Source: Myxococcales bacterium | GTDB taxonomy: Bacteria; Myxococcota; Myxococcia; Myxococcales; UBA5297 | Assembly: GCA_031262165.1 (NCBI GenBank) | Contig: JAISIF010000177.1 | Span: 1 to 34,742, forward strand | Direction of reading: 5' to 3' | DNA: 34,742 nt | Part shown: positions 14,624-34,742 of the stretch, piece by piece | Position numbering within the stretch: the stretch's first letter is position 1 | Layout: each line of letters begins with the position of its first letter | The notes under the pieces: model-generated | Seen by the model: only the letters and a program-made list of their open reading frames with translations | What the model was told of the DNA's origin: nothing | Databases searched by the model: none | Position numbers and translations under genes: made by a program

Positions 14624-14774
14624 ATGAATTCAATACACGCTCACGATTGGAGAAATGGTCATGGCCCTCAGGAAAATCTCCCTCCATCGACAAAAAGCCT
14701 TCGACGCAGAGAGAAGATCCGATTGATTCAGCCAATCCGATTGCTCCGGTTGATTACTAAGGGTCTATACCTAA

Positions 14775-14932
14775 GGACTTATCCCTTCATGAGGACCTTT
14801 GCACCGCGAAGGACGGGGAATGTCAGACGAGGCAAGAGGCGGGGGAGCTTCCAGACGGAAGTGAAGAGCGAAGCAACGAAGACTGGTGTTTCACGGACGA
14901 GTGCGGCGACGGGATAATGAAGGGATAAGTCC
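14775..14932 (+). mobile_element. MITE-like element, copy A (complete)
   Basis: A 158-bp non-coding element with perfect 16-bp terminal inverted repeats: GGACTTATCCCTTCAT at the left end and its reverse complement at 14917-14932. It is flanked on both sides by TAA (14772-14774 and 14933-14935), consistent with a 3-bp target duplication. The interior carries the blocks CACCGCGAAGGACGGGGAAT, AGCGAAGCAACGAAGACTGG and TTTCACGGACGAGTG, which recur in the other copies. No transposase is encoded, so movement would need one supplied in trans. Confidence 0.8.
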
Positions 14933-15106
14933 TAAATAATTTCACCTATAATTGATGAACCCTCAGGATTTCCCTCCAGACAATGATCGCATAGGGGAAA
15001 TATATAAAAACCAAATAGTTTTTTCTTTCTCTCAAACCGGGCCAACAATTTCCTGAATCGATTGATCCAAGAATGAATCACCTCGACGATCCATCTACGC
15101 GCCTTA

Positions 15107-15194
15107 GGACTTATTCCTTCATGAGGACCTTTGCACCGCGAAGGACGGGGAATGCCAGACGAGGCGCGAGGCGGGAGCTTCCAGAACGGAAGTG
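15107..15194 (+). mobile_element. MITE-like element, copy B (right end missing)
   Basis: The left end GGACTTATTCCTTCATGAGG at 15107, preceded by TTA, and about 88 bp of interior match copy A. The match stops after the CCAGA-CGGAAGTGA block, and the right inverted repeat is absent. The break lies within about 10 bp of the kinase gene's terminator. Confidence 0.75.
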
Positions 15195-15263: not shown

Positions 15264-18200
15264 TCAGTTGAAGTCCTCGACGCCGGTGAGCTTCACGGTC
15301 TCGTTCTCCTTCACCGAAATGCTTCGAATGGCGGTTTTTCCATCTGGCGCGGTGAAGACGACGATGTGATCGCCGATGGGAAGGGAGATCGGCTTTTTAG
15401 GCGCGACTGGTGTCTTGCGTCCCGTTGGCTCGCCGTCGATCGAGATGTCCGCGCCTGGTGGCTTCGTGGCCGCGATGAGCTTGCCCGTCTTGCCTGCCGC
15501 TGGCTTGTCAGCCTTGGCGGGTTTCGCCTCCGCAGGCTCTTTCGCGGGCTTGGCCTCAGCAGGCTTCGGCGCCTCGGCTTTCTTCTCTGGCGCCGCAGCC
15601 TTGGCAGGTTTTGCGGCTGGCGCGGGATTGTCAGCGTTCTTGGCCACCGCGGCAGGCGGCGCTGCCGCCGCTGGTTTCTCGGAGGCTTTTTCTTCCTTCT
15701 TGAGCGGCGCAGGTGGTGGCTTGGGCTTGGACTTGGATGCAGCCGCTCGCTTCACCACGGGCACTGGCTCCAGGTCATAATCGAGCGGGAGCTCGCGCGG
15801 CGCGGCGTCATCCTCCTTGAGCTCTGGCCACTCGATGGTCGCGGTCTTGTCCAAGTAGCCGTCGGCCTTGAGCGTGATGCTCTTGACCACCTCGGGATCG
15901 ATGTCGCTGAGCGTGAGTGGCGTCTTGCCCTTTTCCTCGCCGTTCAACTCGACGACGGCTCCCTCGGGCTTGGTCTCGATCTTCAGCGTGAAGAGCTTGG
16001 GCTTTGGGGGAGGTGGCGGGGGGATCTCCTTCAGCCTGATCTGCTTCTCCGTGGTCTGCTTCGAGATGATCTGGACCTCGATCGGCTCGTGCGCCTCGTA
16101 GCCCTCTGCCTTGGCCACGATGGTGTAACTGCCCGGCGGCAGCACGAGCGCCTGGCCAGCCTGGAGCGCCAACTGTTCCTTGGAGAGAGGCGCCGCCGTA
16201 GGCTCTCCTCCTCCAGCTGCCTGCTGGAGCTCGAGCTGCGCCGTCTCTGGCTCTAGCGTGACGAGGAGCTCGCCGGGAGGAGGCGGCATCACCTTCAACA
16301 CGTAAAAGCCCGCGCCACCGCCGCCAAGCACGAGGAGGACGAGCAGCATCGCGATCAGCGGCGCCTTGCTCTTTTTCGGAGGAGGCTGTGGCGTCAGCGG
16401 ATCGTCGAAATCCTCGCCGTCATCCCCTTCCTCGTCGTCATAGTCCTGAAAGTGGCTACGGCCACCGCGCGCGGGCGGCCTGGCCGACGAAGATCTGCCA
16501 CCGGCCATGTTGCTGGGCGGCGGGCTGACGCTGGTCGCCTCGTTCTCATCGTCGCCCTCGTCCGCGAACTTGGGCAGCATGTTCGCGGTGAAGACCCTCG
16601 TGGCGCCAGCCTCTTCAGCGAGTGGGTTCTCGTCGAACTTGGGCAGCATGTCCGCGGTGAAGACCATCGTGGCGCCAGCCTCTTCAGCGAGCGGGTCCTC
16701 GTCGAATTTGGGCAACATGTCCTTGTTGAAGACCATCGTCGCCCCTGCCTCCTCGGGCGCCGGGGCATCTTCGAACTTGGGCAGCATGTCCGCGGTGAAG
16801 ACCATCGTGGCGCCAGCTTCTTCGGCAGGCGAGGGCGCGAGATTCGGCTGGGCTTGCAAGCCAAAGACAGTGCGGATGTTCTCCTGATCTGCGGGCGACC
16901 CACCGGCGCTGGGCGCCGCAGGCGTGTCGTCGTCCTCGAGCGACACGGCGGCTGGCGTTGGCGGTAGAGGCTGATCGGCATCATCGTCTTCGAGAGAGCG
17001 GCTGAGGGCTTTCTGGAACGGATCGACCGCAGGCGCGTCATCCTCCAGAGACACACCACTGGCGAAAGGCTGGGCTTCTGCCTGCGCTGGCGCATCGTCG
17101 TCATCGCCAAAGGGGCGATCGGAACGCCTGAGCGCCGAAGAGTCGGAGCGCGGCGATGGGCTGTCCGACGCGGAGAGGCGCCGCGGGGAACGTCGGGGGG
17201 CTTCGGCGCGCTGGCTGCTGCGCGAGCGCAAGGCTGGCAGCGCGTCATCGATAGCGGCCTCGGGCGCTTCTTCGGGTGACGGCGGGGTTTCGCTTTCGAG
17301 CACTGGCTCTGCGCGGACAGGACGGCGACGCGGCGCTGGTGGCCGCATCGATGCGGGCGCCTCCATGGTGGCCGAGCGGCCTGGATGTCGGCTCAGCGGC
17401 GCGGGGCTCGCGGGCGACGAGACCGCAACCTCCGTCGCCTCGTCCTCGTCGTCGTAGTTCACGCGAGGTGCCTCGCCCGTGTCCTCACCAGACAGGGGGA
17501 ACGTCGTCGATGAGCGGCGGGCAGGGGCTGGCTTGGTAACAGGGGCCCTCACAGGCTCGGGTGTTGGTTCAGACTTGAACTCGAACTCGGCAGGCGCGGG
17601 CGGTTCAGACTCGGAGGGCGGCGCAACGGCGGCGACTTCGTCCTCATCGTCCTCATCGTCGTCGAAGATGGGGAGGCCCATGATGGCCACGGTCGCCTCC
17701 TCGGAGTCATCGCACTCCCCCTCCAAGCCATCATCCGCTCCTGCGGCTCCCTCTTCTTCGTAATCTGGCAACGGCGACTCGCCCGTCTGGTTCTCACCCT
17801 GCGACATGTCTTCGTCCTCTTCTTCGATCTCGTCGTCGTCTTCTTCTTCGTCGTCAGGCAGCAGTTGGGCCTGGGCAAAGCGGCTGTTTCGTTCGGTCTC
17901 GCGCTCGAACTCGTCCTGGAAGATCTCCTGGAGTGACGCGCTCAGGGCCTTCGCGGTGAAGAGCGAGCCATCCGGGTTCAATAGGAAGCGCTGCAGGTCC
18001 TCTTCGAGCTCGCTGCACCACTGGTAGCGCTGGTCTGGGTCGGCTTGGAGGGCCTTGAGGATCACCCTTTCGAGCGCGGGTGGGATGGCCGAATTTATCT
18101 TGCGCGGGCTGGGCACTTCGGCGGCCCGAATCTTCGCGAGCACGGCAAAGTCGGTCGGTCCAGTGAAGAGGCGTTCTCCGGTCAGCATCTCGAACAGGAT

Positions 18201-18818
18201 GATGCCCACGGCGAACAAGTCTGCCCGATGATCGATACTCCCGACGATCTGTTCCGGGCTCATGTAGCCAATCTTGCCCTTGAGAAATCCCGCCTGCGTG
18301 CGCTGCGAGTTGGAGGCAGCCTTGGCAATGCCGAAGTCGATGAGCTTGATGTCGCCCGCGTAGGTGAGCAGGACGTTCTGCGGCGAGACGTCGCGGTGGA
18401 TGATGCCGAGCGGCTTGCCGCTCATGTCTGCGCGGCGGTGCGCGTAGTCGAGGCCATTGCACAGGCGCGTGGCGATGAAGACGGCCGCTGGGATGGGGAT
18501 GGGCTGCTGCCTGTCCATGAGGCTGCGCAGGTCCTTACCCGCGACGTATTCCATCGCGATGTAGTAGGCGCCCTCGTGAACTCCCAGGTCAGAGATCTGG
18601 ACGATGCTCGGGTGGTTGAGCTGAACGCAAATGCGCGCCTCGTCCAGGAACATCCGGGTGAAGTCGGCGTCCTCGGACATGGACGGGAGGATCCGCTTGA
18701 TGGCGACGCGCCGCTCGCCGTTGCCCTCGAGGTTCTTGGCGAGAAAGATCTCCGCCATACCGCCCACACTGATGCGCTCGACCAGAAGGTATTTTCCGAA
18801 GGGGATTGGTTTTTTCAA
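15264..18818 (-). CDS. Membrane Ser/Thr protein kinase with PEGA domains and tandem phosphoacceptor-like repeats
   Basis: A 1184-residue Hanks-type kinase. The kinase domain covers about residues 7-280: glycine loop with GGMAEIFLA, VAIKRI (K41), LDEAR (E60), IIHRDVSPQNVL (catalytic D143), DFG (161-163) and MSPEQ. Residues of about 320-815 form a long, acidic, proline-rich disordered region holding four 23-residue repeats (see 16548-16823). One membrane segment lies at about 819-841. Outside are three PEGA-like beta domains (about 846-930, 942-1010 and the last 75 residues), with a Lys/Pro/Ala-rich, TonB-like spanning linker before the third. Such kinases sense envelope conditions and phosphorylate cytoplasmic partners. 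The start is TTG 18818, next to the family N terminus PFGKYLLVERI, with a GAGG upstream. No FHA domain is in the protein itself. The substrate is unknown. Confidence 0.93.
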   Translation of the reverse strand: MKKPIPFGKYLLVERISVGGMAEIFLAKNLEGNGERRVAIKRILPSMSEDADFTRMFLDEARICVQLNHPSIVQISDLGVHEGAYYIAMEYVAGKDLRSLMDRQQPIPIPAAVFIATRLCNGLDYAHRRADMSGKPLGIIHRDVSPQNVLLTYAGDIKLIDFGIAKAASNSQRTQAGFLKGKIGYMSPEQIVGSIDHRADLFAVGIILFEMLTGERLFTGPTDFAVLAKIRAAEVPSPRKINSAIPPALERVILKALQADPDQRYQWCSELEEDLQRFLLNPDGSLFTAKALSASLQEIFQDEFERETERNSRFAQAQLLPDDEEEDDDEIEEEDEDMSQGENQTGESPLPDYEEEGAAGADDGLEGECDDSEEATVAIMGLPIFDDDEDDEDEVAAVAPPSESEPPAPAEFEFKSEPTPEPVRAPVTKPAPARRSSTTFPLSGEDTGEAPRVNYDDEDEATEVAVSSPASPAPLSRHPGRSATMEAPASMRPPAPRRRPVRAEPVLESETPPSPEEAPEAAIDDALPALRSRSSQRAEAPRRSPRRLSASDSPSPRSDSSALRRSDRPFGDDDDAPAQAEAQPFASGVSLEDDAPAVDPFQKALSRSLEDDDADQPLPPTPAAVSLEDDDTPAAPSAGGSPADQENIRTVFGLQAQPNLAPSPAEEAGATMVFTADMLPKFEDAPAPEEAGATMVFNKDMLPKFDEDPLAEEAGATMVFTADMLPKFDENPLAEEAGATRVFTANMLPKFADEGDDENEATSVSPPPSNMAGGRSSSARPPARGGRSHFQDYDDEEGDDGEDFDDPLTPQPPPKKSKAPLIAMLLVLLVLGGGGAGFYVLKVMPPPPGELLVTLEPETAQLELQQAAGGGEPTAAPLSKEQLALQAGQALVLPPGSYTIVAKAEGYEAHEPIEVQIISKQTTEKQIRLKEIPPPPPPKPKLFTLKIETKPEGAVVELNGEEKGKTPLTLSDIDPEVVKSITLKADGYLDKTATIEWPELKEDDAAPRELPLDYDLEPVPVVKRAAASKSKPKPPPAPLKKEEKASEKPAAAAPPAAVAKNADNPAPAAKPAKAAAPEKKAEAPKPAEAKPAKEPAEAKPAKADKPAAGKTGKLIAATKPPGADISIDGEPTGRKTPVAPKKPISLPIGDHIVVFTAPDGKTAIRSISVKENETVKLTGVEDFN
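16548..16823 (-). repeat. Four tandem 69-bp units in the kinase gene (23-residue repeats)
   Basis: Encodes four in-frame copies of a unit with consensus EEAGATMVFTADMLPKF plus a variable acidic spacer of about 6 residues. The threonine falls at residues 671, 694, 717 and 740, a constant period of 23. Related single motifs occur elsewhere in the linker: EEATVAI (T376), DEATEVAV (T462), RTVFGL (T650) and NEATSV (T762). Confidence 0.9.
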
Positions 18819-21200: not shown

Positions 21201-21332
21201 GGAGAGACCTCGGAGATGGGAAGGAGAGGAGAGGAGAGGGAAAGAGCCCTGAAACAGCAGCGAAAAAAAAGAATTCACGACGGAAATGATTCAAATGAAT
21301 AGGGAATAGGGTGGAGTCATTCGTCCGCCTTA

Positions 21333-21488
21333 GGACTTATCCCTCGATTAGGACCTTTGCACCGCGAAGGACGGGGAATGTCAGACGAGGCGAGAGGCGG
21401 GTGCTTCCAGAGGGAAGGGAAGAGCGAAGCAACGAAGACTGGCATTTCACGGACGAGTGGGGCGACGGGATAATTAAGGAATAAGTCC
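21333..21488 (+). mobile_element. MITE-like element, copy C (complete)
   Basis: 156 bp, same orientation as copy A. The left end is GGACTTATCCCTCGATTAGG and the right end is the reverse complement of GGACTTATTCCTTAATTA. It is flanked by TTA on both sides (21330-21332 and 21489-21491). The internal blocks GCACCGCGAAGGACGGGGAA, GAGCGAAGCAACGAAGACTG and TTTCACGGACGAGTG are conserved with copy A. It lies between the lipoprotein start and the 3' end of the ppx/gppA-like gene. Confidence 0.82.
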
Positions 21489-21590
21489 TTATTTCGGAGA
21501 GCCATTCCGCATGAACTCTGTAGGGCTGAATTCCTGTATTCGCCCTTCGAGACAAACAAACACGAAGAGGCAAAGAAATTCATCTCCTCG

Positions 21591-28739: not shown

Positions 28740-28869
28740 GGACTTATCCCCTCAATCATCCCGTCGCCCCACTCGTCCGTGAAACGCCAGTCCTCGTTGC
28801 TTCGCTCTTCACTTCCGTCTGGCTTTCCCCGTCCTTCGCGGTGCTCGGCCCTCATCGAGGGATAAGTCC
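28740..28869 (-). mobile_element. MITE-like element, copy D (inverted, internally shortened)
   Basis: 130 bp in the opposite orientation to copy A. The ends are GGACTTATCCCC at 28740 and its near-inverse, ending GGGATAAGTCC at 28869. The right flank is TAA and the left flank CAA, so one base of the putative 3-bp duplication differs. About 25 bp present in copies A and C is missing from the interior. It lies between the sugar transferase and the aldehyde dehydrogenase gene and could be in the latter's 5' region. Confidence 0.8.
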
Positions 28870-28929
28870 TAAGTCGACCCGTGGTTCTCGGATCAGTGCT
28901 CACCCATCTCGAATCGACTGGAGTGGACC

Positions 28930-32137: not shown

Positions 32138-32289
32138 AGTCCCTCACCCCATCGCCCCGCTTGTCCGTGAAACGCCAGCCTTCGCTGCTGCGCTCTTCAC
32201 TTCCGTCTCTCGGATGCGCCCCCGCCTCGCGCCTCATCTGGCTCTCCCCGTCCTTCGCGTTCTCTGCCCCAATTGATGGATAAGGACTT
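32138..32289 (-). mobile_element. MITE-like element, copy E (degenerate, inverted)
   Basis: Shares the interior blocks TGTCCGTGAAACGCCAG, GCTCTTCACTTCCGTCT and CTCCCCGTCCTTCGCG with copy D, in the same (inverted) orientation. The terminal repeats are eroded: the right end reads GGATAAGGACTTG rather than GGATAAGTCC, and the left end lacks GGACTTATCCC. It lies just upstream of the large lipoprotein gene. Confidence 0.65.
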
Positions 32290-34566: not shown

Positions 34567-34700
34567 GACTCAACCTCAAAGCAGGCCGCCGTCGGCCAAG
34601 CAGACCGATGGCGGAAGGAAAGACGTAGCCGACTCGGAGAACCCGAGCGGACAGAGATGGAATCCCGGCGGCGATCGCGCGCTCGGGATCGATCGATTCA

Positions 34701-34742
34701 GGACTTATCCCTTAATTAGGAACTTTGCACCGCGAAGGACGG
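34701..34742 (+). mobile_element. MITE-like element, copy F (cut by the window end)
   Basis: The left end GGACTTATCCCTTAATTAGG begins at 34701, preceded by TCA, and continues through TTTGCACCGCGAAGGACGG, identical to the interior of copies A and C. The rest lies outside the window. Confidence 0.75.

Follow-up and report, generated by a model that had tools for sequence, protein, structure and literature searches.

Why should a membrane kinase carry four near copies of one threonine-centred peptide between its catalytic domain and the membrane? The question is raised by a gene in a 34,742-nucleotide window (the whole stretch of DNA analysed here) from a Myxococcales bacterium, where a membrane Hanks-type Ser/Thr kinase of 1184 aa is encoded at 15264..18818 (-), next to secA and other housekeeping genes. 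Its TTG start agrees with the MKKP N terminus of orthologues in the alignment. The kinase domain (aa 13-269, 18012..18782 (-); Pfam E = 3.6e-39) has intact VAIK, HRD, DFG and SPE motifs; among solved chains it is closest to StkP and PknB. It is followed by a disordered acidic linker (about aa 320-817, 16368..17861 (-); pLDDT <50), a transmembrane helix identified by hydropathy (about aa 818-844, 16287..16367 (-)) and a predicted periplasmic part with PEGA domains (15279..16286 (-), from Pfam and AlphaFold2; best Pfam stretch aa 944-996). In the AlphaFold2 model, for which a 14-sequence alignment served as input, aa 1-317 and the C-terminal PEGA parts are folded and pLDDT is <50 for nearly all of aa 320-844; Asp and Glu make up 24% of aa 301-830. 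The disordered juxtamembrane linker and the one transmembrane helix are features of membrane Hanks-type kinases, while the Pfam scan of the chain gives Pkinase and PEGA, with PEGA domains instead of extracytoplasmic PASTA repeats, and no FHA domain.

The array consists of four units of 69 nt (23 residues) with the core EEAGATMVFTADMLPKF, which tile 16548-16823 (-) exactly: EEAGATMVFTADMLPKFEDAPAP (T671, 16755..16823 (-)), EEAGATMVFNKDMLPKFDEDPLA (T694, 16686..16754 (-)), EEAGATMVFTADMLPKFDENPLA (T717, 16617..16685 (-)) and EEAGATRVFTANMLPKFADEGDD (T740, 16548..16616 (-)). TRF reports the same repeat at 16565-16823 with a period of 69 and 84% matches. A first-pass annotation of this DNA had described four 23-residue repeats with threonines at 671, 694, 717 and 740, C-terminal to the kinase domain and N-terminal to the membrane helix, and both the repeats and their placement are borne out. 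The common core that it gave, GATMVFTADML, fits units 1 and 3 but not units 2 and 4; the four units read ATMVFTADML, ATMVFNKDML, ATMVFTADML and ATRVFTANML. The full pattern T-x-V-F-x-A-D-x-L is accordingly found in 2/4 units, with K for A in unit 2 and N for D in unit 4. Each of the four candidate phosphoacceptors has F at +3, giving a cluster of T-x-x-F sites in a disordered region, and the +1 residues are M/M/M/R, with no Gln. Looser sites had also been listed at residues 376, 462 and 762, and these positions are correct: T376 lies in SEEATVAIMGLPIFDDD (17655..17705 (-)) and T762 flanks the array within NEATSV (16533..16535 (-)). A further T-V-F site, T650 in NIRTVFGL (16857..16880 (-)), lies just upstream of the array and was absent from that list. 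Across the whole 3.02-Mb genome, matches to A-T-x-V-F-x-x-D-x-[LM] are confined to the window kinase (0 for the reversed control pattern), a search of the genome with the array finds no second location, and a PDB sequence search with the array gives no match at E up to 10.

Repeats of this kind may simply reflect replication slippage, by which one functional site was recently and neutrally expanded and its copy number has no role. Units 1, 3 and 4 are nearly the same DNA (48-50/51 core bases match), so that likeness within the gene is weak evidence of selection; copies are mostly more alike within species than between species, copy number and spacing vary, and the kinase array is limited to one genus. 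The argument for selection is carried by unit 2 and by the comparison across species. Of the changes that separate the core of unit 2 from that of unit 1, 7 are synonymous and 3 nonsynonymous, with 2 residue changes, and at least three intact cores persist in all three species of the genus compared despite change in the spacers. Moreover, a sister genus has a multi-copy array in a different protein. We therefore regard neutral expansion as very unlikely.

The three species carry 4/3/3 copies at a spacing of 23/25/21 residues, and the three-copy cores of the relatives read EEAGATAIFTADMLPK[YF] in one species and EEAGATAIFTTDMLPKF in the other. These cores are identical to unit 1 at 14-15/17 positions (82-88%), compared with 63% and 78% identity for the kinase domains of the two same-genus orthologues and 25% and 33% for the linker upstream of the array; the array core is thus better conserved between species than the catalytic domain. 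Core differences between species are mostly synonymous (e.g., 5.7/11.7 synonymous vs 4.3/39.3 nonsynonymous sites). Conservation of the threonines among orthologues had been put forward as a check by the first-pass annotation, and within the genus it holds for the array and for T376, which both same-genus orthologues keep as SE[EG]ATVAI, but not for T462 and T650; at T762 the relatives retain a Thr in changed context (NEKTAAV, AESTHVT). When 195 genomes of the phylum were searched with the array, it was found in this genus only, plus one other protein, described below.

Is the array a GarA/OdhI-type switch, as had been suggested? The motifs are partly alike: T-x-V-F-x-A-D-x-L agrees with the GarA substrate peptide SDEVTVETTSVFRADFL (PMC8546545) at T, V, F, A, D and L, acidic residues lie upstream in both, and the recognition chemistry is compatible with FHA domains. 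The second Thr of the TT pair in the GarA/OdhI motif ETTSVFRAD[LF]L is missing from the window array, however, the +2 residue is I in both relatives, so that the exact T-x-V-F-x-A-D-x-L string occurs only in the window species, and the array sites, unlike those of GarA/OdhI, are multi-copy, lie in a kinase linker and have a species- or genus-specific string. Because the chain has no FHA domain, it cannot close on itself as the GarA/OdhI switch does, and membership of that family is ruled out.

We then compared the linker with those of orthologues and close homologues from about 25 further genomes of the order, the named orthologues being from Myxococcaceae, Archangium and related MAGs. The array is absent from the kinase orthologues in these genomes outside the genus; order-wide, it is a looser form, acidic-T-x-hydrophobic-hydrophobic, that is conserved. 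Most of these linkers carry one acidic-x-T-x-[VIL]-[FVIL] site (DRTEVFRPVF, EATQLFRPEF, EKTQLFNPAL, DKTQIFDP, ERTSLFQPF, DKTQIVDS). In 20 non-redundant linkers, with the array genus excluded, T-x-[VIL]-[VILFM] is matched 16 times vs 5.9 expected, and 16 matches vs 2.4 expected have an acidic residue at most 3 positions before the Thr; 0/500 shuffles reach either count, although the shuffles ignore the shared ancestry of the orthologues. The Ser version of the pattern has a weaker excess (11 vs 6.4 expected, reached by 28/500 shuffles) and the reversed pattern none (1 vs 5.8 expected). When 12 Myxococcaceae-type linkers, whose mean column identity is 0.17, were scanned without regard to any motif, the highest-ranking conserved hexamers were those of the IPPPTEEELAEMDG block, which leads into D[KR]T[QVMI][IM], and those of a GATMIGPAP site. 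This GATMIGPAP has G-A-T-x-[IV] in common with GATMVF of the window kinase.

These data bear on a second explanation, that the whole GATxxFTADMLPKF core is a linear-motif dock which binds a partner (e.g., a substrate, a scaffold or the kinase's own C-lobe) independently of phosphorylation, with the Thr merely part of the interface. Such a partner is possible because the core is conserved through DMLPK[FY], past the usual reach of an FHA groove; within the genus this part is kept as well as the Thr half, and a downstream D/E-x-L-P part recurs in the sister-genus protein and in a second kinase of the genus. Orthologues across the order nevertheless share the Thr half ([DE]..T-x-hydrophobic, GATxI) and not DMLPKF, and the excess of Thr over expectation exceeds that of Ser in the same linkers. 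On balance, we judge a phosphorylation-independent dock to be unlikely.

The features of the linker suggest that the array is probably an autophosphorylated, multivalent phosphothreonine (pThr) dock for FHA proteins, placed on the kinase's own juxtamembrane linker. Both the phosphorylation of the array and its binding by FHA proteins are inferred here, as are its reader and its role in the cell. In each EEAGA-T-x-[VI]-F core, the active kinase or a partner kinase would phosphorylate the Thr; cytoplasmic FHA-domain proteins would then bind the array pThr, reading the hydrophobic +2/+3 residues, and would be kept at the membrane, as effectors or substrates, beside the catalytic domain.

Docking of this kind has precedents, in that autophosphorylated tails recruit FHA proteins in PknG-GarA and PknB-FhaA (PMC8546545, PMC6180346, PMC12077195). 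In PknG, four autophosphorylated Thr in the disordered N terminus anchor the FHA substrate GarA (PMC8546545). The window kinase likewise has a disordered tail with several Thr, but those of PknG are N-terminal, form no repeat array and are autophosphorylated, whereas those of the window kinase are putative phosphosites. The juxtamembrane domain of PknB recruits FhaA (PMC6180346, PMC12077195), and FhaA binds NDRPTGTFTFAELLA of CwlM (residues 378-392) via pT382, with F385 at +3 (PMC6180346). PknB, StkP and PrkC share with the window kinase the order of kinase domain, long disordered linker, transmembrane helix and extracytoplasmic domain; the window kinase differs in having PEGA rather than PASTA, a linker of ~500 residues and tandem copies of one motif. 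By analogy only, four T-x-x-F sites in about 70 residues resemble human MDC1, in which four TQXF sites (residues 699-768) are read by the FHA domains of RNF8 and Pellino (PMC11884936). MDC1 is a eukaryotic protein and not a kinase, ATM phosphorylates it in trans, and its Gln at +1 is not matched in the window array, being found only among the order-level orthologues (T-Q-[LI]-F in L133, L135 and L144). The published FHA-binding peptides of CwlM and MDC1 have T-x-x-F in common. Outside Actinobacteria, work on DgcB extended the recognition of a pThr tail by an FHA domain to Bdellovibrio and to M. xanthus FHA-GGDEF proteins (PMC6733907); this pairing resembles the one proposed here, except that in DgcB tail and FHA domain are on one protein. 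Taken together, these comparisons suggest that the linker of the window kinase most probably recruits FHA proteins as the tails of PknG and PknB do, in an MDC1-style multi-copy format. Our search of the open-paper literature found no bacterial kinase described as carrying an array of this kind.

A third explanation would need no dedicated pThr reader: the threonines may be generic juxtamembrane phosphosites at which added negative charge tunes kinase or envelope function, one option proposed for the pneumococcal StkP linker (PMC12077195). Seven pThr lie in the disordered juxtamembrane domain of StkP, and streptococci lack FHA domains (PMC12077195); juxtamembrane sites were inferred to be non-conserved in sequence between the kinases studied (PMC12077195). 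The window linker is already strongly acidic. Charge requires neither fixed hydrophobic residues at +2/+3 nor a 17-residue core, yet both are kept while the spacers diverge, and the genome encodes many FHA domains; we thus consider charge tuning distinctly unlikely.

If FHA proteins dock on the array, candidate readers should be sought among the 17 FHA-domain matches in the genome, most of which retain GR, S-x-x-H and N-G, the canonical binding residues. Their architectures include FHA-TPR, tandem FHA, FHA-GGDEF, FHA-cyclase, FHA-sigma54 activator and FHA-secretion ATPase. The genome-wide list places no FHA gene in the window or on the kinase's contig, which weighs against the docking model, and a partner encoded beside the kinase was therefore rejected. 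Three FHA proteins carry array-like Thr motifs outside their FHA domains (DGATQAF, IETTRV and DTTRLF). The first is an FHA-TPR protein (L194:1165-3309 (-), G000 contig C207) with DEKTMVGASMDDGATQAFSTLKL just N-terminal of its FHA domain; DGATQAF lies about 30 residues ahead of the FHA Gly-Arg, and the tail DEKTMVGASMDDGATQAF is similar to the kinase array core, which makes this protein a candidate reader of the array. The second is an FHA-GGDEF protein of DgcB type (L195:1543-2640 (-), G000 contig C100), in which the GarA-like DDSIETTRVTKF, with IETTRV, precedes the FHA domain. In the third, an FHA-sigma54 protein (L189), the two FHA domains flank ADTTRLFDRPE.

The motif also recurs beyond the window kinase and the FHA proteins. 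The genus has a second kinase, unrelated to the first (L072/L180-L182), with an nSTAND-like ATPase part and 80-88% identity within the genus; its N-terminal tail carries EGATVVLSVDSLPEL, EDGATMVLSADEVFEL, EGATVVL and EAATQFLP. The sister-genus protein (L130:4457-5902, genome G004) is a membrane protein of 482 aa with one hydrophobic stretch and no Pfam match, encoded near an MlaD gene, and carries five copies of the motif (PTTMLAADMLPKF), with the repeat variants EGPTTMIAAEVLPGL, EGPTTMLAADMLPKF and EGPTMFASEPLPGLF. The motif is not a general mark of kinase tails: T-x-hydrophobic-hydrophobic is found 3 times vs 4.0 expected in the linkers of the genome's other kinases, another point against the docking model, a cruder disorder filter for the motif in the genome's kinase tails finds nothing either, and the idea was dropped. 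A genome-wide scan with T-x-hyd-hyd-x-x-[DE]-x-hyd-P was likewise set aside, with 9 matches vs 5 for the reversed control; 4/9 of these lie in the window or second kinase and the remainder resemble chance.

A broader and rather doubtful extension of the docking model, drawn from these motif matches, is a lineage-wide FHA network on one peptide code, [GP]-[AT]-T-x-x-[FLI], in which kinase linkers (as arrays), membrane scaffolds that are not kinases and FHA-protein tails would all carry the motif. In such a network, the phosphorylated kinase array would recruit an FHA protein and the kinase would then phosphorylate that protein's own tail (e.g., DGATQAF of the FHA-TPR protein), which would compete for the same groove and cause release, with array copy number setting the threshold.

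Outside Actinobacteria, only a minority of bacterial kinase-FHA pairs have been assigned. A short, conserved and countable motif in a disordered linker would make the docking code readable from sequence and predicts which Thr to mutate. Furthermore, the copy numbers found here (4, 3, 3 and single sites) form a natural series for multivalency in bacterial Ser/Thr signalling.

Two other kinases of the genome have Thr motifs of a different kind in their linkers. One (L078, G000 contig C62) has three tandem [SK]EPTATDVRNHQRPMAS-like copies, the third diverged, and this is a different Thr repeat. The other (L079, G000 contig C90) has STKMGLPVFD and PTKMGLPLFD, which are similar to the T376 site ATVAIMGLPIFD of the window kinase; these sites together are a second candidate for a shared Thr motif.

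The intergenic DNA of the window also holds at least five copies of a dispersed repeat of about 165 nt (AGGACTTATCCCTTCATGAGGACCTTTGCACCGCGAAGGACGGGGAATG...GGGATAATGAAGGGATAAGTCCT) with inverted ends, with matches at 14768-14933, 15100-15190, 21321-21489 and 34689-34742 and, on the opposite strand, at 28749-28876 (-) and 32144-32259 (-). This repeat resembles a small mobile or REP-like element.
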